From positions 117,365 through 156,409 of the forward strand of contig NW_003124904.1 of NCBI RefSeq assembly GCF_000003605.2: a DNA stretch of 39,045 bases, read 5' to 3'. Position 1 is the first letter of the stretch. Each line of letters starts with the position of its first letter. This document shows, piece after piece, positions 52 through 34,568 of this stretch. The stretch comes from Saccoglossus kowalevskii. Taxonomy: Eukaryota > Hemichordata > Enteropneusta > Harrimaniidae. Under the pieces are notes generated by a model. That model was not told where the DNA came from and searched no databases. It saw only the letters and a program-made list of their open reading frames with translations. The position numbers and the translations under genes are program-made.

Positions 52-137
52 CGTATTGTGAGTTCCATTTTGGTGGGTGACCACTCCGGTGTTGTCTCTA
101 AATTCAATACCAGTAAATAACGGTGGTTGTCGGTTAG
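52..137 (-). CDS. Left sulfatase exon 10, last exon in the window
   Basis: It encodes Q-P-P-L-F-T-G-I-E-F-R-D-N-T and an N-G-T sequon, ending at a GTATAT donor. Positions 1-51 are the start of the next intron. It is one codon longer than the right copy (27137-27219). Confidence 0.88.
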
Positions 138-3100
138 CTACACATTCAAAGATGAAATATACAATATATGGTATCATGATGTCTAGGAACGCTCCCTGTT
201 TCATACAACAAATACTGATCATTTTCGAAATTGATTCGGGATATTTCGGATAAAGTCATTCACTTCATCATGTATACAGACAATAATATCAATTTAAAAC
301 TCGAGAAAATGTACGTTAGGTTTGTGGAAAAAACGGCCGAACTTAGAAACAAAATAAGCAAAATAATCACATTTCTGGTTCAACAAAATTTTCATTGGGA
401 ATTCGGCAGAACACAAAGTATCCTAGAAATTTGCTAGAAAACAAAAAAACATCGTTCGATTTATTCTACGCTATAGGTCACATCAATGTCTAAAGAAAAT
501 AATAAGCAGTCTTCAAAACACAAAGTCAAATGTTGGTCGCAGCTTCTTTAAAGACATACATTATGGCAAAAAAGTCCATCAACGGGACAATGTAAGCTAT
601 AATTCTAAACACACTCTAAGCGCCAAAAAAACTTATCTTGCCCTCAAGTCGGAAAATTGAAAAATTAGGTCGGTCGGTCGGATTTTTTTTTTTTTTTTTA
701 AACTCGTGGAAACTAAGGGTGTCGTGAATAATAAGATACTAAACACAAAAATCAAAGTGTTTCTTTCAGTCTTTTGTATTTAAATACAGATCAACCCGAG
801 GTTCAAAGTCGCCACTTATTCTCCGGGGAATCTGTGGATAAAACAACGGTCCGGGATCGTTAATTTTTAGAGTAAACACTTTTTTACTGCTTAAAATGGT
901 GAGTTTTTAATATTTGGGCCAATTAAAAAAAACACGACCAGATATTTCATATTTTTCGGTCGGTCGCTGAGGGCAGCAAAACAATTTTTTTGTTTGGCCT
1001 TATGTATACTTTCTGGCATGATTGTATACTGCCTGTACAAACAATCATAAAACCATAGACAAAAAATGGCGGCTGAGATCTCGTTGAAATCGAGAGATCC
1101 ACGTGACTTGATGATTTTCTCCCGTAATCCCGTCCACTGCTCTAAATACGATAGTTGTATAATCATGAAAAAAGTGGATTCATTGATTGGAGAAAATTAT
1201 TATTATTAGAAAGGAATAAAAACAAGTCCCGTAGCTCTATTTCTCCATCTCTCACACACAATGAGATCTCGGCGGCCATTTTCATCTAAGGTCTACAGTG
1301 TACAAATTGTATATTTACGCGGCCAGTTCAACATGTGTGTTTCATAGTCCGATATTGTAGCTTCATAACATCCATAATGGGAATCAAATCCACGCCACAG
1401 GGGTGTATAAGTCCAATTACACGAACCAATATTCCATCTAAAAAAAATTTAAAATAATATTACTATAAAAACAAATTAGCAGCGGAAGCAATATAATTAC
1501 ACCGTCGACTGTATATATCAACCAGACGTGAACAGTGGTTCAGTGAAGAGCAACTTTACGTTTTTTATATATTATGTATCTGTTAAAGAAAACTATCATA
1601 TCAGATCATGTCACGTGGTACGTACTTGCCAACAACATGGTTCATGTAACCGACCTCCTTCAGTTTGTTGGCCAGTGTAGAGTATTCACTAGGCAAATAA
1701 TATGGCTGCGATGGTAGAACCACAGAGTGCTGTAACACAAATTATTATGTCAATTCAACAAGGAGTTATATAGTACATTTTCGTTAGTTTAAACTTACGA
1801 AATGCATATTTCGGAGACTTAACGATGTGAAATTAAATTGTGTTAGAAAAATACATTTGCATTTGAATGAGCAATCAATTTATGTTCGGGACATGCAACT
1901 CCACGTACTCTTCTTAACACCATGACGAGAAATACGTCATTGCTATAAGTTCCGCCCTCTAGTGACGAAACACTTCTGTGACGTCAGCATGCCGTAAATG
2001 AGGTGAAGGCATTGTCGTTCAGATCGACCTTTCTATTCGGTTGTGCAGTCGTTCGACATCTAGTATAAGTAAAATCTCTCAAGAACGCAATCTTATTGGT
2101 GAACGACGGCGGGTTAAAACGATATCGACGTATTGAACGTCTGTGACGTCACCCATTTACCTCGTACAAGCGCTTCATTAATAGAGGGCGCTATTTACAG
2201 AAAAGTTGTATTATCCTCGGGCGGACATCCGAGCATTTTCACCGCATGGCAACCATTTTCCGCCCCCGAGGATATAACTAAAACTTATCACCCGATAATA
2301 ACCATACTACATACCTGCATATCGACTTTTGCTGGATATCTACCAGTTAACAGCGCAATACGTGAACTATAAAAAAAAACAAGAATTAGTCTGTATTTAA
2401 AATTTACACACGTCATCAAATATTTGTTTATCTGCATCGGCAAGTTAGTCGACATTAAACACCAAAGGATTATGTAAATTTTAATCAGTAAACAGTTTTA
2501 TACAAATTGATATCAATTTCTACGAGAATAATAGTTACGTGGCTTTGTCGATTTTTCTTAAATGCCTGAAATCCTTCAAATCATCTCATACAGTTGTTTG
2601 TCTAAACTTTTCATTGAACATCCACATCAGAAAACAATTCCAAAATGTCTTTATATTGATAACATTTCAGAATGACAACTTTATTACAGTTGCCAGCAAA
2701 GTTTGGTTGCAACATTAGTTTAACAGAATCGAATTTCAAGTAAGTAAACAATGTATTTTACACGCGTTGCCGTGTATATGTCGCTATGAGTCCCATATCG
2801 AACAGGACGCGGCGCGACGACTGCCGCCCTTTAACATAAAAGACAAGCAAACAATCATGATACATTCGAACATACATAATTGCTTGTCGTAAATGTTTGA
2901 TATCATCAATTTACAAATCACATGTGTTTAGAACTGGTCACATGGAATAATCACAATTTCAAGAGAACCAAACTGCATATCGTATAGTAGTTAGCTTACC
3001 CAAACAAAAGATCTGGTGGTATAGTTGAAATGATTTGTAGTAATACAACATGTACTTTCTCATGCACATTCAATCGACATAGTATCAGATACTTACGGAG

Positions 3101-5634
3101 TACAAAGTGGTTGTGCATACATGTTATTAAGAATAACACCATTATACGCAAGTTCATTCAACACTGGTGTTGGCATGAAGTCATTGTTCCAACCAACGTC
3201 ATTCCAACCTTACGACAAAACAAAATGTATTATAATATTGTGTACTACAATAATTTAGATTAAAAAAAAACATACTTATATATGCGATATTAATATAGGT
3301 GTATGTATGCTGACAATTCTTAGGTAACGTGTGTAAACAAAATATTTACTTTCATTTTCCTTTTTGTCAATTTAGAATAAAACTTTTCAAAGTTTTACAA
3401 ATTGATCAATATATACTAATACTCGCCTTAGTTGCTGGTGACAGATCTGGATTAAACGCTGCCACTTACCTGCGTCATCAATCAATACCACGACAATATG
3501 GGGTTGTTTACCGCTGACGTCACAGGAATCATCTACAAAGACACAACGTGGTGAGTTTCAAATCACAGTGTAAGAAAAAAATAACAAAAATAAATAAAGA
3601 TATTTAAATCTAGCTCCTACCGTCTCCGTCGTTCTCGCAGTGGTTGTCGTCGTTGTCGCCCTGGTCGTCGTTGTTCTCGACTTCCCTTTTAGCGAAATTG
3701 ATTTCTGAAAATACATTGTGGATTAGGTATCAATACAAGTAGAAATGTTTCAACAGATTATAGAAATTCAAGTGAGATACAGATCCGTGGTACATCGAGG
3801 CCATTTCACAATGTAATCTCATCCTTACAATTAATTAAATAACAATTTAGTATATTAGTCTTATTTTTGACTCGTTGTTAACATAACTCTGTACTATGGT
3901 GTTGGTGATATATGAATTGGGTGCCATAGGATGGTACTTGATGGCCAACCAATCTAATCAAATATGTATTTTGCATTGTACGAGTGCAAAATAAGTTATT
4001 AGGAAATTAGGATATTAGTATCAGCTGTTTTATACGCATGCGCATTGGCCGATCCTGTCAAATCTCGTCATCTGTTTTGGGGCGTGTCTGGTCGATGTGA
4101 CATTGCTTCAGCCATTGTTTATTTGGAGTAATTTCCAATTCTACGCCAGGTCCTTAGTAATTAATGATTCCACGTAATTATTCAGCCGTTATTTGACAGA
4201 CGTAAAATGCCATAATGTTAATTCGCGGAAATTTAAACACACTGATACTGATAATGAATTAAAAATTTGCCAAAAAATACTAAATTAGCTATCTCATGAA
4301 AATAGTTAAAATCAAAATATTTGGCAATTTATTAAGTTTTGCGTCGCATGCACACGATTGAAATATCATATAAAATGGGCCTAATATACTAATGTTGTAT
4401 TTATTTATTTGTAAGAACGAGTTTACATCCTAGAATGGCCACGATGTACCACGGATCGATACAGTATTACATTATATACACAAGTACCCCCTCCGTGAAG
4501 CTAGATATACCACGAGATATTGCACAACTCACGACATATATGCACGAGACGCAGAAATATACAATATCTAGCAGTATACTCAACTTTGTTAAAGATTATT
4601 GCAATTGTATTATATCGTAATTATTTTCCCGTAGTCTTCAGAAATGAAAACACGATGAAAATCTAGAAAACATTATTGAACTGCAACGACGCCTTCTGTG
4701 CGTGTCTAGGGTAATATATACGTGGTTCTGAAACTAGCACATTATCATCTAAATTCTTACCTGATTTATTCCGAGTCGAAATTATGTACGTTTTCTTATT
4801 TTTAGGAGACTTTGAACGATTTGATGCCAACATACAATAACAAACTTTTTTTGATCTAAACCTATAAACTACTCCGTACAACACTAGACAACACAGGCAC
4901 GACAAGTTTATTGACACACGATCGAGCATACCTGTGCCGACATTTTTTTTGGTAAAGTGACTCACCCCTTCTACAAACTCTCTAACGCATAATAGTCTCC
5001 ATCATTGCAGTTCGGTTTAAAATAAAATTATAGTTAATATCTATAAAATACTGATTCAGTGTTATTATAATATTCCTAAAATAGAAATGATAACATATTC
5101 AATAAGATCACGCCATGCATTATGCTACGTCTGGCCGTATCGTGAAATTTAAAGCGGGGTCTCATCCAATCACAAAAATGTATTCATAACACTAACACAT
5201 TAGGTGTGACGTAATTTCAAATAAGCGTATATTAATAAGTGTGGACACGTAAACAAATAACTCAAATTCTAAGCGTCTTACCGGAAGCAGCTAGGTTCTT
5301 CAACATAAATATGCAAATAAACACAACCAGCAATAGGAGCTTAATGCTACGAGCCGTTGTACGATTGAAAGCCTATAAAATAAATACAAAATATTGAATA
5401 TCAATTATGTTTGGATTGTTTTGAGAAAAAAAAACTAATATAATCGCACAGCCGTGGTACACGTACAACATTCAACGCCATATTTAGATGAAGTAAATAT
5501 CTTGCGCAAATATCCACAACTCTTTACCGAGTAAACAACAAGTAAATTTATTTGCGTATTGGATTATTCACTTTAAGTGTCCTAAAATTTGAATATGGTG
5601 CCTATCAATTACTCACCTCATTTTTTCCAAGCAT
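52..5634 (-). CDS. Arylsulfatase B/I/J-like gene, left copy (5' part, runs off window)
   Basis: Coding exons in transcript order (minus strand): 5634-5617, 5372-5282, 3704-3621, 3532-3470, 3208-3097, 2366-2315, 1729-1626, 1437-1319 and 137-52. All junctions are GT-AG and the frame stays open for 243 codons; the gene continues beyond position 1. The product should hydrolyse sulfate esters in the secretory pathway, lysosome or outside the cell; its substrate is unknown. Residues 1-38 hold a hydrophobic signal or anchor and residues 38-65 an acidic Asn/Asp-rich linker. The catalytic core follows: Asp-Asp-Ala-Gly near 83-86, the formylglycine motif C-T-P-S-R at 121-125 with L-T-G-R after it, and Gly-Lys-Trp near 174-176. 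The next residue, usually the catalytic His, is Asn177. The ATG was chosen because the paralogue keeps the same start and the same short upstream exon sequence. Assignment to the ARSB/ARSI/ARSJ group rests on motif resemblance. Whether the gene is active is uncertain. Confidence 0.9.
1061..1287. mobile_element. MITE family D, left intron 9
   Basis: Inverted ends of the form AATGGCGGCTGAGATCTCG and its counterpart CGAGATCTCGGCGGCCATT, with internal CACGTGACTTG and AAGTCCCGTAGCTC blocks. The same element sits at the same place after exon 9 in the right copy. Confidence 0.75.
1319..1437 (-). CDS. Left sulfatase exon 9: G-K-W-N-I-G region
   Basis: The acceptor TTTTTTAG leads into the second half of the Lys codon, then W-N-I-G-S-C-N-W-T-Y-T-P and R-G-F-D-S-H-Y-G, the segment after the catalytic lysine in ARSB-type enzymes. 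The usual H in K-W-H-x-G is Asn (codon AAT). The exon ends ...N-W-P at a GTAAAT donor. Confidence 0.85.
1941..2200. mobile_element. MITE family F, left intron 7
   Basis: The ends are TCCGCCCTCTAGTGACGAA and the inverted AATAGAGGGCGCTATTTAC, with TGACGTCA near each end. The right copy carries the same element at the mirrored place. Confidence 0.75.
2212..2274. mobile_element. MITE family C, short deletion derivative, left intron 7
   Basis: TATCCTCGGGCGGACATCC faces CCGCCCCCGAGGATA across a 63-bp unit. The right intron 7 has continuous sequence at this place, so this is an insertion specific to the left copy. Confidence 0.75.
2726..2834. mobile_element. MITE family A, partial, left intron 6
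   Basis: Carries the CAATGTATTTTACACGCGTT core and the ACGACTGCCGCCCTTTAA end. The opposite end is missing. Confidence 0.7.
3097..3208 (-). CDS. Left sulfatase exon 6, carrying the formylglycine cysteine
   Basis: 112 bases ending ...P-L-C-T-P, with the Pro codon split by the intron. Cys121 is the residue expected to be oxidised to formylglycine. I count one base difference from the right copy, a Met/Ile change. Confidence 0.9.
3621..3704 (-). CDS. Left sulfatase exon 4: acidic Asn/Asp-rich linker
   Basis: An 84-base exon encoding a low-complexity acidic segment dominated by Asn, Asp, Glu and Gly, with one Cys and one His (D-D-N-H-C-E-N-D-G-D at the end). It lies between the membrane segment and the sulfatase domain. 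It differs far more from its right-hand counterpart than the flanking exons do. Confidence 0.8.
3705..5281 (-). other. Left sulfatase intron 3
   Basis: AT-rich intronic DNA of about 1.6 kb. The part near 4940-5230 mirrors the right intron 3 (20180-20480). No coding signal seen. Confidence 0.6.
5282..5372 (-). CDS. Left sulfatase exon 3: signal or signal-anchor segment
   Basis: This exon encodes basic residues (N-R-T-T-A-R-S-I-K) followed by an uninterrupted hydrophobic run (L-L-L-L-V-V-F-I-C-I-F-M-L) and a short polar tail. That is typical of a signal peptide or type II anchor. It is 91 bases long, starts at phase 0 and ends at phase 1. Confidence 0.85.
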
Positions 5635-5656
5635 CTTCTTGGTAGACTTTTTTCAG
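5617..5656 (-). CDS. Left sulfatase exon 2: end of 5'UTR and start codon
   Basis: The acceptor TTTTCAG precedes 5656. The exon has 22 untranslated bases, then ATG and five more codons (M-L-G-K-N-E), ending at a GTGAGT donor. The right copy at 19490-19528 has the same ATG, the same six codons and the context CCAAGAAG before the ATG, which supports this start in both genes. Confidence 0.85.
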
Positions 5657-6683
5657 CTGAAAATTATGCTCAAGTATCTTCCTTGTTCCAATGTAGGACT
5701 TGTGAAAAAAAACCTGAAATGCAGTAATGTGCAAGCAAGAAATATATTGTGACCAAATACACCAAATTATATCCCGGCTGTTAAATGTCAGTAGATGTCA
5801 AAAGTCAGTAGATACAGAAGAAGTGCTTTTATTCTCTGTTTTGGTATGCGTAAGAGAGTGTATCACACGAGTGACTCTTTGGTCTTCTTTACAGAAAGAT
5901 ACTGTGCTAGTTTGCCAATCAGTGGCAATTTAGTCTTCGAGAAAAATGCGAGGAAATACTGGGGATTATTTCAAAGTCAATTGCCGTTTACCCCCCCCCC
6001 CGATTTCAAATGCATTGTGAGTGAATATAACCCGTCTATAATTTATTGTCCCTCACACCACAGTCCCTCTATCAGACGCAATGACCTTCACGGCAAATAA
6101 TTTAAATAAATTGAGTATTACATTTTTGTTGTGATATGTTATAAGTGACTCCATGAATGGGTTTAATGTTAAAAGATTTAAAATAAACTCAACGTTATTT
6201 AAAGGATATAATTTGTGATTTCTCCGAAGTGTTTAACGTTAAGTGTATGTTACTATCCTGTACTAAGAAATTCGGTGTAGTGTTTAATTCATACGGAACA
6301 ATGCAAACATGTCTGCAAATAACAACTCAGTTTCGAAATGATTTGTCATCAACAAACAGTCACCACCCACAGTTCTGTCAAAATTTGATCTGTTAAAAGC
6401 AAGATCATGTCTATCCAAAAGCCAACTAGCATATATACAAGAAAGATAAAACTAGAACACTGGATATAAGTTCAAATAAATAAGTGCGAAGCCAAGATAA
6501 TGCTACCAAGCAACAACATAACAATGGGCAAGGAATTATTTAAATACAAAGCAACAACGAAACTAACTACTGTTTCTTCTACGTAATAGAGAACGCGAAT
6601 ACTAAAGTCGATGAATCCCCCCCCCCCTTCCCCCACATCAAAGTGTGTTGATGAAAACTCCCGGGTGCTCGTATGTTATTTAA

Positions 6684-6776
<93 letters not shown>

Positions 6777-8650
6777 ATCAATTTTGGTGCAATGAGCCGT
6801 CGAGGAACGTCTGGTCTACATGTCGAAATCGCTAACCACCTGGGAACTCAAATTCACCAAAAGGAACTAATTAAACAAATTTATTAAGTCACGTTTCAAC
6901 GCCCCCCCCCCCATATAGTCGTCAGAGATTGCCGATAACACGGAAATTTACAAACACTATATGTCTTGTTTTCATATATTGGGGGTCTATTTCTTCTGCG
7001 CATTGCATCACGGGAAATAGTCAGCACTCAAGAGAATTGAAACAAACAAGGACTAGTTGTTGTTGATACTAAGTTGCGATACAAGTCCTGCATGTTTATG
7101 TCAGTTGTTTTCTAATTGACAGAACAAAATATTCTACATTTATTAATCTATGTCAGCAAAAGATATTCCTTCTATATACTGTGACATTCACAGTCAACGG
7201 AGTGCGTGATTGGACAGTGGAGCGGCGACTTGAAGTCTGGGTGCGTCGCAAATGTATCAAAACTAACTTTATTGTTAGTAGCAAAACAACTTCGACAACA
7301 TTGGAAGCAATTGATGTACATTTACCGACAATGTTGATAATAACTTACTCAAAGCATGACTGAACAGATAGTAAGCTTGTTCTTTATGTCAATCTACTAT
7401 TATTAAATCCATATTTTAGTGTTTAATTTGAAGAGTCATTCGTATTACACAATTATATTTGTCTCACGACTCGTGGATTCCAACTTGTTGTTAAAAGAAC
7501 AAGCTGCCAGAAACAAGACAATTCCTATACAGTATTAGTTGATATGTGTCGATCACTTAAAATTAATGCAATGGTACACAACATGTTGGTTTCCATGTTG
7601 AATAAAACGAAATCATTAACATTCGCTGAACTAGTGGTGAACTATTCACCACTCACAGGTGGTTTGTAACAATGGGATAACTTTTGAAAACGTATTTTTT
7701 TTGTAATATTTTACATTAAACACAAAAATAACGTATAAACGAAGTTAGAGTGAATAAATCGATTTACAATTATAAAAGAGAATTACTACTTATCGGGCGA
7801 TTCATTTTAATAGGAAATCTTTCTAATTCATCAATGTTTTTTTCAATCCAATTATGTTTTATTTTTTCTTATTTAAAAAAAGACTTTTTTCCCACATTTA
7901 TTAAATTCAAGTTGGACTAGGCTTGCCTAGCGCTTTGTGCACTCTGCTTAGTAAGTAGACAAAAGTGGTTCGCAATTTTGCTGAAACCAGTTAAAATTAA
8001 GAAACTGACCCCAAATATTCAGTACTGGTGTCCAAATGTCATTTGTAAATTTACAATGTATAAACATGTGTGTGTATTAAGTTTTTCACCCTACTTTTTA
8101 CAAAAAGTACACGAATGGGAATCAATGTAGGACATTCTATACAGAGTAAAATTGGGGTGAACCAGATTCTTTAAAATACGACAATAGAAATCTCGTGATT
8201 TTGAAACAATTTTTGTCAAAAAAGAAAGCACATAGTATGATTTCCAGCTGAAAGCAACGTTAGGAAATAGACGTTGAAAGTCCATTTCACTTACTGGTGG
8301 CTAAAAAAATTCTTGAGATAAGGATTTGTGGAATCGATTTGTCAATAGTAATTATTGTGTTACTACATATTTTGCCAATCAAAAATTAATTTAACTTTGC
8401 TGTACGCTTTTTTATTTAATTTTATATTCTTCTCATTCTCCAATGATATTAAATAATTATAAATTTTCATTTACATCCATGTAAATGACACTGCACGGGG
8501 AACAAACATATTTGTAACATTGAATCAAGGCTGTTACTCACATCATGATTTGAAACTTCGCGATGGAATCCGTTATGTGCGATTTGTCACATTAGAATAA
8601 TATCACAATATAAACACTTCTAGTAATGAAGGTATAATGCCTGTACTCAC
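5657..8650 (-). other. Left sulfatase intron 1
   Basis: No exon found. It contains segments mirrored in the right copy (5660-6110 with about 19050-19480; 6350-6590 with about 18100-18390), poly-C runs, an (ATT)n microsatellite and AT-rich sequence without recognisable features between about 6850 and 8450. Confidence 0.6.
6681..6774. repeat. (ATT)n microsatellite
   Basis: More than 25 uninterrupted ATT units, present in the left copy only. Confidence 0.95.
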
Positions 8651-8674
8651 CTCTGCGCTGTGTTCTTGTTTGAA
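8651..8674 (-). other. Non-coding exon 1 of the left sulfatase gene (inferred)
   Basis: A short conserved segment ending GCGCAGAG|GTGAGT lies 25-30 bases after the TATA box. It has no ATG, so it would be 5'UTR joined to exon 2 at 5656 across a 3 kb intron. The 5' end is inferred from the TATA spacing only. Confidence 0.55.
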
Positions 8675-8696
8675 TCGTGGCAGAAATGCAAATGCG

Positions 8697-8704
8697 CTTT
8701 TATA
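8697..8704 (-). promoter_or_regulatory. TATA box of the left sulfatase gene
   Basis: TATAAAAG on the minus strand, about 30 bases before the inferred start of exon 1, whose donor (GCGCAGAG then GTGAGT) is at 8651/8650. The arrangement is mirrored in the right copy. Confidence 0.65.
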
Positions 8705-8722
8705 GAACAGTATTCAACAGCT

Positions 8723-8738
8723 ACGTCATTTGTGACGT
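8723..8738 (-). promoter_or_regulatory. Paired ACGT (CRE-like) motif, left promoter
   Basis: ACGTCACAAATGACGT on the minus strand just upstream of the TATA box: two inverted TGACGT half-sites of the bZIP/CREB type. It is conserved at the same distance in the right promoter. Confidence 0.5.
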
Positions 8739-9964
8739 AACATACATTATTGTGTTTCGAGAATAATTTGCCTGGTGGCAAACTGAGTATGTAATTAAAG
8801 TAAAAAGAAGCAATACGCAAAATCTAATCAATCGAGAACTGCTTGCCTCACGTAATTCTTACGTTTGCCAGACGTGCCATATTGTTGAAATTACATGTAT
8901 ATGTGATTCGAATACCGAGCTAGCACACCGTCGTCGAATAACAGTAAACCCAACTAGTTTATTTATCCGAAACAATGGCTAGGAAGGATAAATTTATTTT
9001 ACAGACAATGTAATTATACACGATGATATTAAGATAACTGTGAAAAAAAATGTCTTTCCATGCATGTAGGATGCAGGAAAATAGACAACAACAGTAAATA
9101 CCACGAAGTTCAAAATACTAATAGTAGCTTTTATTAGTACAGTGACCTCAAGAAAATGACTGTCATTAAAGTTAAACGAGCTAAATCCCGGGAAAACAAC
9201 ATCAAACAGATTTTTTCGCGGTTTTCGCGCTGGTGAGTGTTTAGTAATCGTACAATTCATTGGTGATAGTTTTGGATGCGTGATATATGGAAATTGTGTA
9301 CCTTTTATCCTTTTTTTTATTTCACACTCCAGTACTCAGGCTCTCTTACCCTTTCTCGCGTTCACACTCTCACTATCTTACATACACAGTTTTTCCCTCT
9401 CTCAAAAACACACACACATGTCTTTTCTCTCTTGGTCACTCTCTTTTTCACTCTGATCCCGAACAAAGATGCATGCGTTCTTTTTCATGAAACTTTGAAT
9501 TTACAAGAAATGATTCTAAAGACAATCAGACAAGTGGGTGATTTAAATGATTGTACTTTAATTATTGTAACTCCGTCATGGTATCTTATTGTAAGCTAGA
9601 ATGCCTTTAAATGCGTGCCCACGTGATAAAGTATGTTATTATATACGATATATTTGTTTATGTGTCATCTGATACGTTTGGGGCAGTACATCGTATTGTT
9701 GACGGTGGCGATCGTCGTGTAACAAACAAACAAACAAACACACAATGTGTATAGCATATAATGTATACGGCGCCTGCTGGGGCCATATTGAACACGACTA
9801 CCCGCTTCAATACTTCGTGGAATGGAATCGATAAAATAAAATTGAAACATTGTGTAATTGCGAGCAATTGAGCTAAATCACAAAAAATCACTCAATGTCA
9901 GTGCTGTTTGCATACGGTAGCACAAATCTGGATCAACACGTCTTACCAACTAATACTAGTTTTA

Positions 9965-11610
9965 GTCAGAAATATTAGATCAGAAATAGAAAAAAAAATA
10001 TTATAGTATTGTGGTCATATTTCAAAGATAGAAACTCAAATACAAGCTCGTTTGTGCCATTACGGATTACGTTTGTGCAGTGCGATTACTGAGTTTAATA
10101 CTTATTTTAATATCTGATTTTAATAGTCAGTCGCCAGTGCGCCCTCCAAAGTGATCTGACACACCACTGTCGTTTTTACACTTGCAGAACATAACAATCC
10201 TACATTGATATAGTGATCTACTAGCGTTATGCAATTTGTAATTTAGTCGTAGGAAATTTACATTCTATAGACACAAACACGAAGGAAATCGGGTGCCTCA
10301 AGTTACAGACACATACATTTTTTTTTTTCCTAAAGACCGACTCTCATCAAAATAACTAAACGTGATAGTTGGAGATTCCATTTTTCACGCGAGATGCCAA
10401 CAAAATCATTCCACCTGGAGAGCTCACTGTCAGTCACTAATATTATGATGTAACGAATTGATTACCGAAAGTTGCTTCAGAAATTGTTTGAAGTTGATGA
10501 AGGTTTGTTAGTTACTGCGGAAGAACTTAAAGGGCCGTGGTCGTTGCGCAGCGCGTGTTCGAATTTCATGTAAATAAACAATGTATTTTACACGCGTTGT
10601 ATACGTCGCTATGAGTCCCATATCGAACAGGACGCGGCGCATCGACCACCACCCTTTAAATAGAAATGTAACTTCGGTGGAACCCCTTTGAGTACTCAGA
10701 ATACTATTGTTCTTTAAAAAATACTTTATGATTTACTCGGGCTTTGTTCTACTTTTAAACGTTGTCATGGATCGAATTATTTTAATTATGGTCACCTGCG
10801 TCTTGTGAAGATGGTCACCTTTTTCGTTGAACGCTATGAATTCATTCTCTGATGAGATGAGTCTCTGTAAGCTGCTCCATGACTTGTAGATACCACACTA
10901 TTTATAATATTTATATATATAATATTTTGGTTTATATACGATTCTCCGACGATGTATTTTATGCTGAGAAATACCAGATACCATTCTCGTCGGGTAATTG
11001 AATACCAAATAAATAAAAAAAAGGATATGGCCTCCGGAACGTCACTCAAATCTGTGAACAGAGGCAGTATCACGCTTTTTAACATATTCTAACACATCAG
11101 TACACAATTCTGTCTTGGCATTCGAAGTTCCCAATCAATCACAATACAACCTTCCACACAAATCTAAGCTGAATGAAAACAACTCGGTCTGGAGTCGACG
11201 TGGGTCTGAATTGGTGTTGCATATGTTTACACAAAGAAAACATCTGTGAAATGTATTCCAATTAAATAAGTACGCTTTGTATTAAAATTAGTCTGGAAGA
11301 AATAATATGTGATACATATGAGATCGGATCAGAACAATATACTGTAATTTATTTTTAGTTTTTTTTTATTTGTATACAGCAATACTTGCGTCATGAATGG
11401 ATGAATGTTGCTGATCATCAACTGTTTTTTTTACGTGTGTTTTAATTCTTCATCTTAAAGTATATCAGTTTTTGAAGTACATTTACTATATCAGCACAAC
11501 AACAGGCACAACAATTGGCAGAGAAGTTTAATCTGACATCTAATATGCATGATAACGAACTTTATCAGTCAATACCACGTAGTAACTTTATTTATTACTA
11601 TTATTTTTTT
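9965..11610. other. Asymmetric spacer at the centre of the inverted duplication
   Basis: About 1.65 kb of AT-rich DNA that I cannot match between the two sides. It holds one TTAA-flanked MITE (10527-10659) and no convincing coding exon. Confidence 0.6.
10527..10659. mobile_element. MITE family A, central spacer
   Basis: TTAA borders with inverted ends AGGGCCGTGGTCGTTGCGC and CATCGACCACCACCCT, and the core CAATGTATTTTACACGCG. TTAA targets fit the piggyBac or Kolobok superfamilies. Confidence 0.85.
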
Positions 11611-11885
11611 AACACTACTGTTGGTAAGACGCATCGATTTTGACAAAACTGACACTCAGCTTTTTGTGATTTAGCTCAATTTGTCACAATTGTGACAATA
11701 TTTTATTTTTATTTTATCGCTACCATTCCACGAGAAATTGAAGCGGGTGCTCGTGTTCAATATGGACCCAGGCGCTGTATACATTGTATGCGATACACAT
11801 TGTTTGTTTGTTACACGACGATCGCCACCCTTAACAATGTGATGTACTGCACCAAATATACCGGATATAAGTATAAACAAATATA

Positions 11886-13315: not shown

Positions 13316-13347
13316 ATTGGGCGCGCCTCGAAACAAGGCGCCCAATC
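13316..13347. repeat. Short GC-rich hairpin
   Basis: ATTGGGCGC and GCGCCCAAT face each other across about 14 bases, next to the helicase fragment. It may be an element end or a simple foldback. Confidence 0.5.
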
Positions 13348-13530: not shown

Positions 13531-13572
13531 TTAAAATGAAACGCCAAATAGGGATTTGTAACACGCAAACTG

Positions 13573-22238: not shown

Positions 22239-22270
<32 letters not shown>

Positions 22271-25200: not shown

Positions 25201-28200
25201 TCTTGTATTAACGTTTCTAGTCTTGAATATGCGAAAACCATTTTAGACTGTTTTGAAAACTCATACACTTTGCGCAATGTCAAAGGACGGTGGTCGTCTC
25301 GGCGCGCACTGTTCGATACGAATAGCGACGTGCGCAGTGCGTGTAAAAAGCATTTATTCACACGAAAATCAAACATGCGCTGCACGACGACTACCGCCCT
25401 TTAAACTTTAAACTAAAGTGTTTACACTGAAACGATTATTATATTTGAATACGTTTTCCGACGTAAACCTACATTGTAATGCGGAAATATATGTCATAGG
25501 CAATTGTTTCATGATTGGTTAATTGTTTTTCGGTCACCTGCATTTATCAACCTAAAGCGAAGGTCATTGCGACCTTCGTATAGTAAATATGTATACTTTG
25601 GCTAGGCACTGTAGTGATGATTGTGTTGTTATACACCGGCGCCATCTTGTAATCATAATTCATTGAGCTGTAGTGCTCCAGCCTGCCATCGGGAAGTATT
25701 CTTGCAGATTCGTTTTTGTGCTGTCTTCTGTGTTTAGTTACAGTCTACACGACTGTTCAATCCGCGAAATCGTTGACGTGTTCGTTTTGAGCAATGACAA
25801 ATGTTCAAATGCGACGTGTATATGACGCAGATTTTCAAATAGTGGAGCGCTCAAAGCCATTTTATCCTGTNNNNNNNNNNNNNNNNNNNNNNNNNNNNNN
25901 NNNNNNNNNNNNNNNNNNNNNNNNNNNNNNNNNNNNNNNNNNNNNNNNNNNNNNNNNNNNNNNNNNNNNNNNNNNNNNNNNNNNNNNNNNNNNNNNNNNN
26001 NNNNNNNNNNNNNNNNNNNNNNNNNNNNNNNNNNNNNNNNNNNNNNNNNNNNNNNNNNNNNNNNNNNNNNNNNNNNNNNNNNNNNNNNNNNNNNNNNNNN
26101 NNNNNNNNNNNNNNNNNNNNNNNNNNNNNNNNNNNNNNNNNNNNNNNNNNNNNTACAACGTCGGACTATGAATCACACATATTGAACTGGCCGCGTAAAT
26201 ACACATTTTGTAATTTATAAACATCAGATAAAAATGGCCGCCGAAATCTCGTTGTAAGAGAGAGTGAACCACGAGACTTGATTTTTTTTTTTCCTTCGTA
26301 TAGTGCCAATTTTTTCCGCTTATCACGTCCACTGGTTTTCTGATTATGTATCCATTTATTTAAAGCAATGGGCGGGATTACGTTGAAAAATACACTATTT
26401 AAGGGAAAAACAAGTCCCGTCTCGACAAGTCTCGTAGCTCGCGTTCAACGAGATTTCAGCAGTCATTTGCGTCTTGGGCCTAATTATTGGATTGTACATT
26501 TCATAGGTAGTAAACAATCATGTTAAAAAACATATATACGTTTTAGGAATGTGTTTATAAGTATTGTATACAGTAACCGTTGATTGAATATTTGGCCATT
26601 GCATATGACCAACACTGGATTCTGTGTTCGAAAGACTACTTAAAATTTCTTAAGACATTGATACTGTAGATGTATTAATTATTCACTGGGTTTTAATTTC
26701 GCTATTTTCGCTGATAAGTAAAATCCGCTAAATTAAATCTAGGTGAACATGTAAAATAACAATAAACTCATTGTTTCATTGACAAATTCGTAAAATTAAA
26801 ACACAGTGAAAATGCTCAAAACATCAAAACAGTGAAATTAAATGTCAGTGAAAATAAATGGTTTTACAGTATTACATACAACGTCTGAAATAATTATTGA
26901 AAATATATTTTTCTAGGAAATTTCCAGGATACAATTCTTTTGCCAATTTTCCAAACAAAATGAAGCAGAAATGTAACCAAGTTTGAAATTGATATTATTG
27001 TCTGTAAACATGATGAAGTGAATGACTTTTTTCGAAATATCCCGAATCAATTTCAAATTATGTTTTGTATAACAACACTGAGCGCTAACAGACATCATGA
27101 TACCATGTATTGTATATTTCATCTTTAAATGTGTAGGAAACCAACCACCGATATTTACTGGTATAGACTTCAGAGACAACACCGGAGTGGTCACCCACCA
27201 AAATGGAACTCACAATACGGTATTTACATTTAGAATAATATAAATATATATATATATGCAGTGTACAGTATCGATTGGTTGATTGACTCATCTTTAACCT
27301 GTTTAAAAATATATACAAATAGTTATATTTATTCATTTAAATCTTTTTAAACAGTTTTTATTTAGCGAAAGGGCAGAGAAAATTGTTAGAAATCACAACC
27401 CTGCTTCACCACTATTTCTATACGTTGCGTATATGGTACCCCACTTCCCTATCCAAGTAAGTATTATCCCAAATTTAATACACCTACATCCCACGTGACA
27501 GCAGTTAAATACATGCATTTATACCTAATTTGAACGCAATTGTCCTCAGACGCAAAATGACCGCCGAGATCTCGTTGAGAGCGGGAGAACCACGAGACTT
27601 CTTGCTGTCCATCAAATAGGTTCCATTCTTTCTTGTTGTTGAGCCAACTGTTTGCGTAAAGCATGTTATTTAGAAGCAATGGTTAGAGAGGATGGAACAC
27701 TATTTGTGATGCAAAGGCAAGTCGCGTGGTTATCTCGCCCTCAACGAGATTTCGGCGGCCATTTGCGTTAAGTGTATACTGATCATAGACGGAAGAGAAT
27801 CAGATTTGTTCACAGTGACAAAAGTTTACGTCATTTAGCAATTCTGAATCTGATTAAATATGATTAATACATTTTCTTTCGTCTTCGAGAAACGTGTAGT
27901 CATTGTGGTTACAGCACCAAACTGGTTGCAAATGTTTTCTTGTTTTTTTTATCATAACTCCCATAAAATACATTTATTTAAAAAAAACAATATTGGCAAT
28001 TTGATTTTATAGGGTCGCTAAATTGACAACTAGTAATCTGTAATTTATATTATTTGTTAATGTATAAATTTTGGACACATTAGGCGCATGCGCGGTGGCA
28101 GTTGGTAATGCCAGTGAGACGAGGCTACTGTTTGTGGATTCACTCATTAGTTATATTTGAAAATATGTAAACCAGAATAATTAAACATTCCGAAGAGATA

Positions 28201-31200
28201 AGTCGTCATTTTTATGAAATTTCTTTCCATGAACTTAATTCTAATAATTCACATTTTTTGGCCATTTCTCATGCAACAGGTTCCGGCTGGATTTGAAGAA
28301 TCTGTACAAGTCGATGACGCTAACAGGAAAGCTTATGCTGGTAAGTGTTTGCCGTAACACGATTTTCTTTCTAAATTTGTATCACAGCCGGCAGAACAAA
28401 GGAGAAGTTACCAAACTGAAGGTGCATTGGCAGTACACCTTTCAAATGAATCGCGCCCTCTAATGTCGAAGTGATTTCATGACGTAAATGAGTTACACGA
28501 AGCACGCCCACAACGTCGTCTTCGTTTTTATTTACTCGAGTTGCACATAATTTTTAGAGAGATTTTACTAAATTCTCGAACGACTACACAATTGAACACT
28601 CTTGTCGATTTGAACGACATTGCCTTCACTCTTCTACGTCATTTTGACGTCACATAAGTACTATGACACCAGAGGGCGCGATTTATTGAAATGATGTATT
28701 GTATGTTTGCGAAGATAGAGTGAACAGATTCATACTTGATCTACACAATGTTGTTGTGGCACCGCGCTATTTTTTTTAATCCTACAATTTTTTTTTTCAG
28801 TAGCATATAGAATATAACAATTCTTTTTTTTTCTCCGACGTTATTAAAAATTAGGCATGATGGCAGCTATGGATCAAGGTGTGGGTAACATCACACAGGC
28901 CTTGAAAGACACTGGTATGTGGGATGATACACTGTTTGTATTCCTCAGTGACGTAAGTTCAAATTTGTAATAGTTTAAAGGGCGATGGTCGTCGTGCAGC
29001 GCATGTTTGAATTTCGTGTAAATAAATGTATTTTACACGCGCTGTGTACGCTCTATGCAGATCGGACCGTACGCGCCGAGACGACCACCGCCCTGTAAAG
29101 CGCGGTAGTCGTCGCGCTGCGCATGTGCGAGATACATGTGTCTCATATAAACAATGATGGCGACTTTTGACTGTTGCGCAGATCAACGAGTACGAACTGA
29201 CACGTTTCCAAGCTGTAATTAGGTAATTTTCATGTGATTGGAAGGTATCAAAACAGTCATCGGCGGTAATCAGTGCAAGTCGCGCCCAGGTCAAACCTCA
29301 CACTTGTGATTTCCACTTGAAGAGCGCATTGGATTGTGGGAAAATCAATGTCTATCAACACAAATGTCGAACATGCGCAGCGCGAAGACTACCGCGCTTT
29401 AACATTGCGCAGAGTGCAGAGTCTTTTAACAATGGTGACTGGTTTATGATTGTTGCGCATGATTTAGTACAAAATGCATCCTCGATAATATATATTATGT
29501 CGTTAATTACATTTTGTCGTTAATTATGAAATTCAATAAACTATTGATATATTATTTACTTACAAAGTGATAATGACGCGTAGTTTATCTTAGTTTAAAG
29601 CGAGGGGGTCGACATCTGCACATGTGTGGGAATTGTGCCCCAAGGGACGACGACACCGCACGCTAAAAACACAAAGGCTCATGGGTAGACGCTTATTTAT
29701 AAACAGCCATACGCTTAATGAATGATTTTTTTGTTTAAACTATTTTTTTTCAGAATGGCGGCGATGACGTATTTGCTGGCTCGAACTATCCGTACAGAGG
29801 GAATAAAGGCTCGACGTTTGAGGGCGGTATGAAAGTGCCCGCATTCTTCCACGGCAGCATGTTGCAAGACCCGTCAACTGTGAATAACGAGTAAGCTTTC
29901 CGTTTACTCTCATTGCATCGCCATCGATTTGAATTAGAACGAATTCCATGCAGACTGGAGTTAGTCGGTGTATGGTTTGATCTAACCGATGACATCATGT
30001 ATTCCTTATCGATTGCTGTTTAAAGCGCGGTGGTCGTCGCGCAGCGCGTGTTCAAATTTCATGTAAATAGACAATGTATTTTACACGCGTTGTATACGTC
30101 GCTATGAGTCCCATATCGAACAGGACGGCACGACGACTGCCGCCCTTTAACCCATTGTAGTATGTTATAGTTTTGTACTTATACGAGTCTACATGAAATG
30201 TATGACAACGTAAATACTACTATTATTCAGGTTATACCATTTCACCGATGTATTTGCAACTTTAGTGAGCGTTGCCGGAGGAGAGTTAGGTAGGTAATTA
30301 TTCAAGCTAATATTTAGAGTAACATTCACAAGATCACACTAGACTTTTAAACTCTCCATCATTGTGCATCGCGACAAACAAACAAGGACTGTAAGTCAAT
30401 ATATTGAATAATTGCATCGATAACGCTATATGATATAAGGTTATTACGAGGTTACCGCAAAGTATGCACGAAGACAGTACAGCTGGAGTATCGACCGACG
30501 CGCAGCAGAGGTCGATGCGCGGCGTACCGTCTGATAATAACCTTATTATTATACATCTTTTCCTTCCAAGGATACACCATGGGAATACCGAAATTCAAAA
30601 TGCTTAGAACAGAATCGGCGAGCTTCTTTGTATGGAGTCCGGTCAAATTTTGGTGGCAGCCATGCTTGTTTTTATCAATAGAGAACGCTTGCGCGCGTAA
30701 TCATTCCATATTTGGAATTCGCCTTTCCTAATATGGTAGGATGAAAATACCCGGTAAAATACCGCAAAATTACGACACGCTGTAAATTATGGCGTCACGG
30801 TGACAGATGTATAATATGTAGTACTAGTAACAGATAATAGTAGTATTCTTCCTCAGTTATCGATATGTATGGAGACTATTCATAAATATTCATAGATAGA
30901 GATATCCTCGAGGCGGAGCTACGTCACAAGATGTTCCACGTTGCTAAGACGCGCACCACTGTACATGCATTTCTATGGACTGTGTGCGCGCTGTTGTGGA
31001 ACGCCGGTCGAGCCGGTGAAAATTCGAGAAAACAACATAAACTCAACTTTGAAGTAATCCTGAAATTTAAAACAGAATTGATATATGTTAAACAAGTAGG
31101 GCTAATCTTGTTACACTGGAGTCCCAACAACCATCCCAAAGTACCGTTTTCTGCGAGTTTTTTGCCTTTGTTTTCACCGCGATGGTTGCCAGGCGGTGAA

Positions 31201-34200
31201 AATGCCCGGATGTCCGCCCCGAGGATACTAATATATTCAATTCACATAGACTTGTTCATTTCTATCATAAGAAAGAATAGTTCTTTCGAAACGTCAGGTT
31301 ATATTGAATACTTACCAAATACTACAATTACATACTACAATTTTGTTTATAATATGTTCGTCTGTTCCAGCAGCTTTCACCATTATTTAACCGCAATAAA
31401 ACCATGCTTGTAAATTGCGCCCTCTAGTGACAAAGCGCTCCAATGACGTAAATGGACGACACGAAGATCGTTTAGAGGGCGTACTTTACAGGAATGGTGT
31501 ATTGTGAGATACACATGCAATTGTTTTGTTTAAGACGTAATATAAAACAAAAAGGTTAAGTCACACAATTGCCATATTTTTTTCACAACTTTTAGAGACG
31601 GACATTGATGGGGTGAATCAATGGGATAGCATCTGTCGAGGCGAACCTTCAAAACGTTCAGACATTCTTCTGCACTACGACACACACCCTGACACCACCG
31701 GCCTAGCTTATAGGTATGTATTGTTTGTCTTAGTCGAAAATTCGTATGCAGGATTGTTAAAGAAAGTTGTGTTTGTTTTTGTTTTTTGTCAGAAAAATAT
31801 CGGTTATCAGATGATTGTTTCTGTTTAGGCTGTCGCGAATTCAAACCGAAATCATCGGACAAAATATCATCCGTTCAAGTTGTTGAATTGCTTATTGCTT
31901 AAAATGGGGATTGTGTTTTGCCCGTTTCTGTGATTCTGTTTTGTCGTACTGGTATGTTGGAAGCAATCAATTTGTTTACATTCTCAAGAAGCTAGTCGGG
32001 TTTCAACTTAGTATACTAGTAGTCCCTTAATTTTCAAAAGGCCGCCGAAGTCTCGTTGAGAGCGAGAGTGAGAGAGTCACATAACTTGTAGTTTATGTAC
32101 ACTGTAAACTGTTAAATTCTTCTTACCAGAATAGACCTTAGACAGAAATGGCCGCCGAGATCTCATTGAGAGTGTGAGAGTCACATAACTTGTAGTTTAT
32201 GTACACCTGTAAACTGTTAAATTCTTGTTACAAGAATAGACTTTAGACAGAAATGGCCGCCGAGATCTTGTTGAGTGTGAGAGAGCCACGAGACTTGTTT
32301 TTGACCATCCATTCGCTAACGCCAACGTGCTCATTTGCGAATAAAGTCTATTGATATTACCATTCCTACAAAAAAAACTTCGCATATTTCGCATTTTGCA
32401 GTCATTACGTGACAACTCTTTTCAGGTGCATGTATTTGTTTAGAATAAAACGATTCTGTTTTATATGTAGCAATGTGTACAGAGACAATACGGTAATATG
32501 AAATACTGTAAAACACGTCTTCTTAGCTGGCATGTCATTTTAGCTAATTTAGCTTACCTGTAATTTCGCTAATTCAAGATGTCGCTAATTTAGAATAAAG
32601 TATATTCTCGCAATAAGATTGTTGGCATTTTAGCTAAATTAAGATTTTGTTAATTCATGTATTGAATCAAATTCACTAAAATGGCATGTAGCTATTCAAT
32701 GTTTTTTACAATAGGTTTAGAACCCCGAAACAGCCCCTTCACAGAGATTTTGTTTTATTATATATATCTTTATTTTTGTTTTTATCGCCAAACATAACAT
32801 AGCTCTCAATCTCTCAATCCTTTTCAGTTGTGTTCAGTCTGATTTGCAAACACAGTTTTCATTACCTGACGACCGTTTACTGTCAGTAGATATTCAGTCG
32901 TTATCTTCTGTAAACGGTCATTATATATTCACGCTTTTGAGAGTTGTACTTCTGATTTTCATCCATAAATATTTGAAAGTAATGTGATCTGTGACCCGAC
33001 GTCACTGATAGGACGGTAACCAGTATATAGTGGGAAACTTGTCACGTGCGTTAAAGCGGGGGAGTCGTCACCAGCGCATGCGTCAGATGGCCATAGCGTA
33101 TAATTGTTTACAAACAAGCGTCCACCCATGAGCCTTTGCGTTATTAGCGTGTGTTGTTATCGCCGCTCGGGACTCAATTCTCACGCGTGTGCAGGTGACG
33201 ACCCCCGCTTTAATACTGCATAGATAAATTTATATATATATATATTTTTGCTTTTTTTGTTGAAGAATGGGAGACTACAAATACATTGAAGGCATCACAA
33301 CCACATGGCCGTTCAGACGTTTTTCCAACGACCTATTTCATTTTGGTACGATGCTTTTTTTCATCACCATTATACCTTTCACTACATTGCTACATAGTTG
33401 ACTTTTCTGCTTACAAAATAACAGATGTAACAAGCCTTTGTAATTTATCAACAGTTTTATTAATTAACTATAAATTGTTAAACTAATTCTATCTATATTT
33501 GTCAATAGATCAATGGTTTCGTCCTGCTGAAAACCCCAGTGCTCCAATACCTGATGCGCCATTTATTACTGAAGATGAAAATAACAGATTTCTGTTTAAC
33601 TTAAAAGGTATTGCACCACATAATACATGAAGTTATGAATTAGAAACTTAAATAGAATAGATGGTTCTAATTGTTACAGATATTTGGCAGGTAGTAATAT
33701 AGGTGCAACTTATACAACTTTTCCACACAGAAGATGACATGAGTATTCTAGAAGTTCTGATCGGTTATAATTTTTTGTTGAGCTGGGGTGATACATATTA
33801 GTATTCTATTTAAAACAAAATGCATTGTCTTTTGGCCAATTTATTTATTTGTAAGTAAGAAGCTGCATTTCATCTCCAAATAAACAAATTAAAATAAAGT
33901 ACAAATAATTCCTTAATTTAGTATTCAGATATATGATTTACTTGTCATCGGCGGTGGCGTTCAGTCAAATTGATCACGTGCTAAGTGCCACGGAACAGTC
34001 TGCCTCGGGCGGATATTATCCTGCAATTTGCGCCATTGAACTACTCCCCTTTGGCCAGTCTAAACATTCCTCCCCTCTGGCAATTTGGTTGCTGATTCCC
34101 GCGGAAAATTCTGCATTTTGCCCTTTCCCGCTCAATCTAAAAATGGTACTTGCCTGCCCACTGAATAAAAATTTTCTCCTACTGGAATTCCCCTCCGAGA

Positions 34201-34568
34201 AACCCTATTTTTAATGCCCTCCCACTGGAGATGTTTTATTATGCCTGCCCGCTGAAAATCCTTTGCGAACACATATTTCACGAACAGCTCCGTTGACTGC
34301 ACCTGCTACACGGCATGTATCTTCTCCAATGTTCGCGATCATTTCAAATTGTTGTTCAATAATTGTTTAATTCCACTTCATTGTAGATGATCCATTGGAA
34401 ACCAATAATCTGTACTACGATCCGGATGAACAGAATGTTGTTATTGAAATTGAGCAGCGTCTCGAGGAATACAGAGCTAGTATCTCTCCGATTTGGTATC
34501 CAGGCGCGCTGGACCCGAGAAGTGACCCGGCTAAATTCGGTGGTTTTTGGACACCAGGGTGGTGTTAA
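19511..34568 (+). CDS. Arylsulfatase B/I/J-like gene, right copy (complete except for an assembly gap)
   Basis: Coding exons: 19511-19528, 19805-19892, 20948-21028, 21132-21194, 21439-21550, 23991-24042, 24520-24623, one exon partly in the N gap and ending at 26194, 27137-27219, 27355-27456, 28280-28340, 28855-28952, 29754-29890, 30231-30289, 31596-31713, 33266-33345, 33509-33607 and 34387-34568 (TAA). If the gapped exon has the paralogue's 119 bases, the protein is 551 residues, normal for the family. Visible catalytic residues: Asp81-Asp82, formylglycine Cys119 in C-T-P-S-R with L-T-G-R after it, His270 in V-P-H, Asp327-Asn328 split across an exon junction in S-D-N-G-G, and Lys345 in R-G-N-K-G. 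The C-terminus has the family's late D-P-L-E-T-N-N and D-P-R-S-D-P motifs. N-glycosylation sequons N-G-T and N-I-T are present. The introns hold most of the mobile DNA in the window. Substrate specificity cannot be read from the sequence. Confidence 0.95.
19805..19892 (+). CDS. Right sulfatase exon 3: signal or signal-anchor segment
   Basis: Same design as the left copy but one codon shorter. The hydrophobic core is broken by a glutamate (L-I-L-L-A-E-F-I-C-I-F-M) and the tail is T-T-M-A-T-S instead of L-K-N-L-A-A-S. The charge may weaken membrane insertion or favour cleavage; this is inference. Confidence 0.85.
19994..20154. mobile_element. MITE family B, right intron 3
   Basis: TTAA on both sides, ends AGCGGGGGAGTCGTCACC and GTGATGACCCTCCCGCT, same interior as the other B copies. 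Absent from the left intron 3. Confidence 0.88.
20948..21028 (+). CDS. Right sulfatase exon 4: acidic Asn/Gln-rich linker
   Basis: An 81-base exon, phase 1 in and out, encoding a Ser/Asn/Gln/Glu/Gly-rich linker (for example G-E-N-N-N-D-D-Q-G-E-N-E-G-E). It keeps the A-K-R start shared with the left copy but is otherwise rearranged. The donor is GTAAGA. Confidence 0.8.
21439..21550 (+). CDS. Right sulfatase exon 6, carrying the formylglycine cysteine
   Basis: 112 bases with the G-W-N-D-V-G-W-N-N-D strand of the sulfatase fold and Cys119 of C-T-P. The remainder of the motif (S-R...L-T-G-R) is on exon 7, 2.4 kb downstream, so the active-site signature spans an intron, as in the left copy. Confidence 0.92.
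22232..22270. repeat. (ACGC)n microsatellite
   Basis: About nine tandem CACG units in right intron 6. Confidence 0.9.
22479..22768. mobile_element. MITE family A2, right intron 6
   Basis: TTAA then AGGGCGGTGGTCGTCGCGC, with the same interior as 29094-29402. The right end is shortened to ATGCGTCCTTTGA. Confidence 0.75.
23131..23504. repeat. Tandem duplication with a 189-bp period
   Basis: Two almost identical adjacent units share TTTTGTCATTTTCTG, GAACACTGTTGGTAACCGTA and GGACGTTGAGAGGATGTTTT. It lies in right intron 6; the left intron 6 lacks it. Confidence 0.92.
23991..24042 (+). CDS. Right sulfatase exon 7: S-R-I-A-L-L-T-G-R
   Basis: A 52-base exon completing the sulfatase signature: the Arg of CxPxR and the Thr-Gly of the downstream helix. 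The left counterpart 2366-2315 differs at two bases (N-V-G versus K-V-D). Confidence 0.92.
24078..24345. mobile_element. MITE family F, right intron 7
   Basis: Starts GTAAATAGCGCCCTCTATTA and ends CACTAGAGGGCGGAATTTAT. It is the mirror of 1941-2200, with internal TGACGTCA and a GTCGATTTAAACGA block. Confidence 0.75.
25279..25404. mobile_element. MITE family A-related, right intron 8
   Basis: AAAGGACGGTGGTCGTCTC faces GACGACTACCGCCCT-TTAA. The interior is distantly similar to family A. Confidence 0.65.
25871..26153. other. Assembly gap (283 N)
   Basis: Removes the start of right sulfatase exon 9 and the end of intron 8. Confidence 1.
26154..26194 (+). CDS. Right sulfatase exon 9, 3' part only (5' part in the N gap)
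   Basis: The visible end encodes T-S-D-Y-E-S-H-I-L-N-W-P and ends at a GTAAAT donor, matching the end of the left exon at 1319. By comparison with the 119-base left exon, about 78 bases, including the catalytic Lys-Trp-His/Asn region, are hidden in the gap. Confidence 0.85.
26229..26473. mobile_element. MITE family D, right intron 9
   Basis: Starts AATGGCCGCCGAAATCTCG about 35 bases after the exon 9 donor and ends AACGAGATTTCAGCAGTCATT. It occupies the position of the left-copy element at 1061-1287. Confidence 0.75.
27551..27769. mobile_element. MITE family D, right intron 11
   Basis: Starts CGCAAAATGACCGCCGAGAT and ends TTTCGGCGGCCATTTGCG. The inverted ends extend through CACGAGACTT and AAGTCGCGTGG. 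Confidence 0.8.
28440..28705. mobile_element. MITE family F, right intron 12
   Basis: Starts GCGCCCTCTAATGTCGAAG and ends CACCAGAGGGCGCGATTTAT, with GATTTGAACGACATTGCCTT inside as in the intron 7 copies. Confidence 0.75.
28975..29098. mobile_element. MITE family A, right intron 13
   Basis: TTAA left border, ends AGGGCGATGGTCGTCGTGC and GACGACCACCGCCCT, core TAAATGTATTTTACACGCG. It abuts the A2 element that follows. Confidence 0.8.
29094..29402. mobile_element. MITE family A2, right intron 13
   Basis: Ends like family A (AGCGCGGTAGTCGTCGCGC / GCGAAGACTACCGCGCT, TTAA on the right) but with a different, longer interior (about 310 bp, including TTTTGACTGTTGCGCAGA and TTGTGGGAAAATCAATGT). Confidence 0.8.
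29595..29715. mobile_element. MITE family B, reversed and deleted, right intron 13
   Basis: TTAA then AGCGAGGGGGTCGACATCTG, followed by the reverse complement of the CCATGAGCCTTTG block. One end is missing. Confidence 0.65.
29754..29890 (+). CDS. Right sulfatase exon 14: metal-site Asn and catalytic Lys
   Basis: The exon begins with Asn328 of S-D-N-G-G, next to Asp327 that ends exon 13 (28855-28952). It continues to Y-R-G-N-K-G-S-T-F-E-G-G, where Lys345 is in the position of the sulfate-binding lysine of the family, and on to the M-K-V-P strand. Confidence 0.9.
30020..30150. mobile_element. MITE family A, right intron 14
   Basis: TTAA at both borders, ends AGCGCGGTGGTCGTCGCGC and CGACGACTGCCGCCCT, and an interior nearly identical to the 10527 copy. 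Confidence 0.85.
30437..30745. mobile_element. Foldback repeat family E, right intron 15
   Basis: Reverse orientation of 17745-18060: ATAAGGTTATTACGAGGTTA at one end, ATAATAACCTTATTATTATA inside, then the GGCAGCCATG and TTTGGAATTCGC blocks in inverted order. Confidence 0.75.
30903..31227. mobile_element. MITE family C, right intron 15
   Basis: Terminal inverted repeats TCCTCGAGGCGGA and TCCGCCCCGAGGA, flanked by TA. A second inverted pair (CGGTGAAAA / TTTTCACCG) lies within. Interior blocks such as CTGTACATGCATTTCTATGG are shared with 36041-36368. Confidence 0.85.
31405..31505. mobile_element. MITE family F, internally deleted, right intron 15
   Basis: Both ends are present (GCGCCCTCTAGTGACAAAGC and the inverted TTAGAGGGCGTACTTTAC), but only about 60 bases of interior remain. 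Confidence 0.7.
32037..32300. repeat. Family D ends repeated in tandem, right intron 16
   Basis: Three copies of the GGCCGCCGA-GATCTC-TTGAG end, at about 32041, 32149 and 32253, are separated by a nearly identical segment of about 105 bases containing ACTTGTAGTTTATGTACAC. This looks like tandem amplification of one MITE end. Confidence 0.75.
33051..33212. mobile_element. MITE family B, right intron 16
   Basis: TTAA on both sides, ends AGCGGGGGAGTCGTCACC and GGTGACGACCCCCGCT, with CAAGCGTCCACCCATGAGCC inside. Confidence 0.88.
33608..34386 (+). other. Right sulfatase intron 18
   Basis: The last intron. Positions 33940-34260 are unusually C-rich, with repeated phrases such as CCCCTCTGGCAATT, TGCCCGCTGAAAAT and CCCTCCCACTGGAGAT. 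It may be a degenerate tandem repeat or an unrecognised element. No exon seen. Confidence 0.5.
34387..34568 (+). CDS. Right sulfatase terminal exon
   Basis: It encodes D-D-P-L-E-T-N-N-L and, near the end, D-P-R-S-D-P, G-F-W-T-P-G-W-C and TAA. This C-terminal arrangement is typical of the ARSB/I/J group and shows the gene is not truncated. Confidence 0.93.

Follow-up and report, generated by a model that had tools for sequence, protein, structure and literature searches.

Organization of the locus

The window, that is, the whole stretch of 39,045 nucleotides of the hemichordate Saccoglossus kowalevskii that was analysed (C1739:117365-156409 in the 572-Mb draft of 4830 contigs that was searched for relatives), carries two arylsulfatase paralogues placed head to head in an interrupted inverted duplication (Table 1). 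This arrangement had been proposed in a sequence-only reading of the same DNA, and it was confirmed by antiparallel matches, a chain of 17 colinear blocks, the match to an ARSB-like structure and the gene model. The outer limits given in that reading, 52 and 34568, correspond to a boundary of left exon 10 and to the right stop codon. The genes of the draft, among them a COX1 on another contig that is read with 7 TGA codons, suggest an animal and probably an invertebrate.

Table 1. Positions in the window of the duplicated arms, promoters, coding exons and recurrent stretches (e, exon)
Feature	Position	Strand	Remark
Left arm	34..9907	-	may extend past left window edge
Axis spacer	9908..11642	.	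about 1.7 kb, without N; includes 10526-10662, recurrent in 10 other fetched loci
Right arm	11643..27237	+	
Left core promoter and end of non-coding exon 1	8651..8710	-	TATAAAA at 8704; donor after 8651
Right core promoter and end of non-coding exon 1	14896..14952	+	AATAAAA at 14899; exon end at 14952
Left e3, coding part	5617..5634	-	MLGKNE
Left e4	5282..5372	-	hydrophobic, signal-peptide-like
Left e5	3470..3532	-	
Left e6	3097..3208	-	CTP of the formylglycine motif CTPSR at its end
Left e7	2315..2366	-	SR of CTPSR; Asp, against Gly in right copy and paralogues
Left e8	1626..1729	-	
Left e9	1319..1437	-	GKWNIG, Asn in place of active-site His
Left e10	52..137	-	gene then exits the window
Right e3, coding part	19511..19528	+	
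Right e4	19805..19892	+	signal-peptide-like
Right e5	21132..21194	+	
Right e6	21439..21550	+	
Right e7	23991..24042	+	
Right e8	24520..24623	+	
Right e9	26154..26194	+	visible 3′ 41 nt; rest in N gap 25871-26153
Right e10	27137..27219	+	
Right e11	27355..27456	+	
Right e12	28280..28340	+	
Right e13	28855..28952	+	
Right e14	29754..29890	+	NGG of SDNGG; RGNK
Right e15	30231..30289	+	
Right e16	31596..31713	+	
Right e17	33266..33345	+	
Right e18	33509..33607	+	
Right e19	34387..34568	+	includes stop codon (ends 34568)
Recurrent stretches, left side	2214-2257, 2729-2834		found in other fetched loci
Recurrent stretches, spacer and right side	10526-10662, 14334-14652, 17750-18062, 18820-18987, 19986-20160, 22109-22248, 22479-22760, 25282-25404		found in other fetched loci

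The right gene presents 17 coding exons (16 complete), and its model remains in frame to the stop codon. The 524 residues of the product include 27 X for what the gap hides of exon 9, whose length was assumed to equal that of left exon 9. The splice sites of the other right coding exons were regular (15/15 acceptors AG, 15/15 donors GT). Loss of exon 15 from this copy, with a missing DW.PT-type motif, had been considered and was rejected when HFTDVFATL was found at 30231-30289 by comparison with the paralogue C131; similarly, an end of exon 17 at a weak GTTTTT donor was replaced by 33345, before GTACGA. A version of the model lacking 9 residues in the region near the C terminus matched Pfam Sulfatase with an E of 6.7e-45 and 154.1 bits (gathering score, 25) over residues 46-362 and positions 1-300 of the 301 of the profile, and its best solved structure was human N-acetylgalactosamine-4-sulfatase (1fsu), at an E of 2.4e-85. 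Among NCBIfam profiles, four models were matched, all far under their cut-offs. The right copy carries the formylglycine motif CxPSR as CTPSR at residue 92 and, of the ARSB active-site residues listed in Table 3 of PMC7404199, the 1fsu alignment and motifs showed that it keeps the equivalents of Asp53/54, His242, Asp300/Asn301 and Lys318; those of Lys145 and His147 (GKWH) fall inside the N gap 25871-26153.

The left gene appears in the window as e3-e10, that is, eight of the coding exons of the right gene. Its visible N-terminal part reached 77.8 bits against Pfam Sulfatase (gathering score, 25), covering positions 1-132 of 301, and the CTPSR formylglycine motif is present. Human arylsulfatase B, or N-acetylgalactosamine-4-sulfatase, an S1-type formylglycine sulfatase, was the best solved structure for both copies, which are ARSB-like by sequence, the right one keeping the DD, CTPSR, PHF, SDNGG and RGNK motifs.

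Exon boundaries and intron phases are common to both copies, as had been reported. The nine shared coding exons counted previously were reduced to eight (e3-e10), one of which, exon 9, is visible for 41 nt in the right copy vs 119 in the left. The first coding exon, e3, starts with MLGKNE, and in-frame stops were found 6-7 codons 5′ of the ATG in both copies, so eight is the likely shared number. An earlier, ninth coding exon is unlikely given these stops, and an unusual acceptor after the stop could still allow one.

The two genes diverge from the axis, with TATA-like boxes at 8704 and 14899, about 6.2 kb apart. Bidirectional promoter pairs have start sites within about 1 kb of each other, so that, judged from these boxes rather than from mapped start sites, the two promoters do not form such a pair. 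Mirroring of the promoter and non-coding exon 1 had also been claimed, and this held for the core promoter and exon 1; the surroundings beyond the core are kept no better than the introns, since block 8418-8974 differs by 18%. A scan for sigma-70 promoters found 25 against 23.5 expected, a result without meaning for a eukaryote.

Arms, junction and repeats

Self-comparison of the window revealed a series of antiparallel matches between 34-9886 and 11661-27237. In a looser colinear chain, the 17 blocks ran from 9907/11643 to 34/27237 and held 5050 aligned non-coding sites within a left arm of about 9.87 kb, one of them (7660-7854) differing by 33% and possibly aligned by chance. The antiparallel alignment of the arms that the sequence-only reading had predicted was thus found, colinear around a 1.7-kb spacer, broken by repeats and including the 5′ region of the genes, and the inverted duplication is real.

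The draft assembly has N gaps at 13573-13661 (89 bp) and 25871-26153 (283 bp). There is no N over 1-13572, where the arm junction lies and where left blocks 9426-9907 face right blocks 11643-13264. The linkage of the right gene to this junction rests on scaffolding and colinearity, because the 89-bp gap separates the junction from the right promoter. In a draft with these two gaps, one might suspect a misassembly, or the head-to-head placement of two alleles of the same gene, but this is highly improbable: the arms differ at 14-18% of aligned non-coding sites, which makes alleles very unlikely, the recurring stretches are not the same in the two arms, and the junction is free of N, with its flanking blocks in the expected antiparallel order.

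The unaligned DNA of the arms consists in part of repeats. Several stretches recur in other fetched loci (Table 1), and a transposase relic, which we take to be mariner-type, was detected by Pfam Transposase_1 at 12101-12619 (-), between aligned blocks upstream in the right arm. Left intron 1 contains a (TTA)n array of about 32 units (6680-6774), with no counterpart reported at the corresponding position in the right arm, and an intron of the right arm holds two 189-bp tandem copies matching at 97% (23129-23504). Elsewhere in the window, 38629-38908 is self-complementary (77% over 290 columns) and resembles a small inverted-repeat element, and the repeat pair 30904-31227 / 36041-36369, with 88.6% identity, was also found in C3170 and up to 6 of the fetched loci.

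Divergence of exons and arms

The left and right exons differ at 0/18 sites in e3, 3/63 in e5, 1/112 in e6, 2/52 in e7 and 6/104 in e8. The counts previously given for exons 5, 6 and 7 were therefore exact, and these exons are among the most alike; the description of all their differences as synonymous was correct for exon 5 and did not stand for exon 6 (Met/Ile) and exon 7 (Lys/Asn, Asp/Gly), which have replacements only. Exon 9, mostly N in the right copy, was excluded, and a single left codon was removed from e4 and another from e10 to match the lengths of the copies; over the resulting 172 codons of e3-e8 and e10, 11.5 synonymous and 17.5 replacement differences were counted (dS 0.101, dN 0.046), and the signal peptide exon e4 holds 9.5 of the latter.

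The non-coding DNA of all chained blocks differs at 903/5050 sites (K2P 0.205). Exclusion of the conserved intron-1 block and of the poorest block left 824/4575 (18.0%), and eight better-aligned blocks of our choice gave 397/2750 (14.4%). The duplication had been called young, a view that does not agree with this divergence of 14-18%; at the usual animal rates, its age would be tens of millions of years. Overall, it looks like an ordinary duplication and not a very recent one.

The alternative offered in the same reading was homogenization of the arms by gene conversion, in which case the copies would be older than their exons suggest. The dS of 0.101 is about half of the K2P over all chained non-coding sites, and the probability that at most 11 of 121 synonymous sites had changed was 0.005 at the 17.9% of all chained blocks, a control that includes poor alignments. 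This probability rose, however, to 0.055 at the 14.4% of the better-aligned blocks and to 0.20 at an assumed 12%, so conversion is possible but not required: the copies resemble each other somewhat more at synonymous sites than in non-coding DNA, but not clearly so, by a deficit that varies with the control. Another point in its favour is a run of 111 identical non-coding bases in intron 1 (6408-6518 / 18183-18293), longer than the 99.9% shuffle value of 75, but the shuffle takes sites as independent, which makes long runs appear rarer than they are. Conversion between head-to-head paralogues is described for Caenorhabditis in the cited part of a review (PMC3966223). Exons 8 and 4 hold many differences, and divergence picks up again near splice sites, both of which argue against conversion, and we regard it as doubtful. 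For most of the identity seen in the exons, purifying selection on the protein may be explanation enough.

The 111-bp run itself stands far above the identity of its surroundings. As possible identities of the intron-1 block in which it lies (6296-6582 / 18113-18407), an exon, an RNA and a repeat were weighed; the block had no Rfam match and no recurrence in 178,721 bases of other fetched sequence, a tiny sample of the genome.

The altered active site of the left copy

Left exon 9 reads GKWNIG instead of the GKWHLG of human ARSB, and in the alignment with 1fsu its Asn occupies the place of the His equivalent to His147. In the cited parts of three sources (the table of PMC4014121, Table 3 of PMC7404199, and PMC5159873), His147 of ARSB binds formylglycine, and PMC4014121 reports a proposal that the equivalent His of sulfamidase aids formylglycine regeneration. 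When a motif pattern allowing any residue at this position was applied to 54 loci, it returned 11 rows, two for the left gene itself and nine for seven other genes (L021, L027/L051, L029/L047, L040, L041, L044, L052), and all seven had His, among genes that carry the other parts of the pattern, as it misses the rest. Similarly, GKWH was present in all eight sulfatase reading frames of L001-L008, from two other clusters. The residue of exon 7 that is Asp in the left copy is Gly in the right copy, C3170, C131 and C1491.

An Asn for the formylglycine-binding His and an Asp for a conserved Gly suggest that activity was lost or altered, and the sulfatase function of the left gene is probably reduced or absent. 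The Asn at this position is new here and came as a mild surprise; it was read in the left copy of a single assembly, where it may reflect a sequence error or a polymorphic site. The order of the His/Asn change and the duplication is not readable, with the right codon hidden in the N gap. The left paralogue might have been retained as a pseudo-sulfatase, its formylglycine motif kept, with a non-catalytic or regulatory role beside an active mirror partner, a tentative reading that we think unlikely to be correct.

Relatives in the genome and origin of the pair

Sulfatase exons are abundant in this genome, with at least 118 Pfam matches, and a mixed-query search gave at least 130 matches, some of which are the window itself. 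Three close paralogues (C3170, C1491 and C131) share the exon layout of the window genes where it is visible, C1491 lacking e6-e7 in the alignment, where its contig ends. In a tree of five sequences (96 to 302 sites per pair), the left and right copies were sisters with a support of 0.977; they are identical at 114/125 amino acid sites and at 66-76% to the three paralogues. No colinear intron match of the window to these paralogues was seen, and, a few short ones excepted, their matches outside exons mostly correspond to stretches recurrent in other loci.

Other sulfatase clusters were observed in the same genome, namely L004-L008 (C2176), whose members have hydrophobic stretches, and L001-L003 (C3460); the former are presumably STS-like and the latter ARSA-like. 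Additionally, N-terminal sulfatase exons were matched in eight rows along C843:230043-353280, on both strands, which suggests a further local array.

Considering the orientation, colinearity, exon structure, divergence and sister relationship observed, it is very probable that one ARSB-like gene segment underwent inverted duplication, followed by divergence of the arms and a probable weakening of the left copy. The segment would have comprised one sulfatase gene with its promoter and about 1.2 kb further upstream, and its inverted duplication would have produced two divergent genes. The arms would then have diverged to the extent seen in the aligned non-coding DNA, with repeats and indels breaking them up, the coding exons meanwhile being kept alike, mostly, as we infer, by purifying selection. 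The right gene may encode a sulfate ester hydrolase, secreted or lysosomal, that acts by means of a formylglycine derived from the Cys of CTPSR. A direct tandem duplication with later inversion of one copy would end in an identical layout, but requires two events, with breakpoints near the duplicated unit, and seems to us an improbable substitute for a single inverted duplication.

Comparison with known systems and implications

A head-to-head sulfatase pair is already known from Pristionchus pacificus, whose paralogues eud-1 and sul-2.2.1 lie 7 kb apart according to the cited part of PMC8869759. The two pairs are alike in comprising inverted, head-to-head sulfatase paralogues with kilobases between them. 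In contrast, the Pristionchus genes are described there as SUL-2-like, with human ARSA, GALNS and STS as nearest relatives, and are ringed by inverted nag genes, whereas the window pair is ARSB-like; judged from these subfamilies, the two pairs would be of separate origin. The abundance of sulfatase matches in S. kowalevskii also recalls the multiplication of ARSB genes in molluscs, as described in the cited part of PMC5159873, which mentions no head-to-head arrangement.

The locus thus adds one more sulfatase family growing by local inverted duplication, and the pair offers conserved exons set against diverged arms, a contrast that can be measured. If the left copy were indeed a pseudo-sulfatase, its role might lie in binding sulfated glycans, or the enzyme might be caught in its sulfated form. 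The His-to-Asn change makes the pair a candidate in which to follow how an enzyme, once duplicated, loses or alters its activity.
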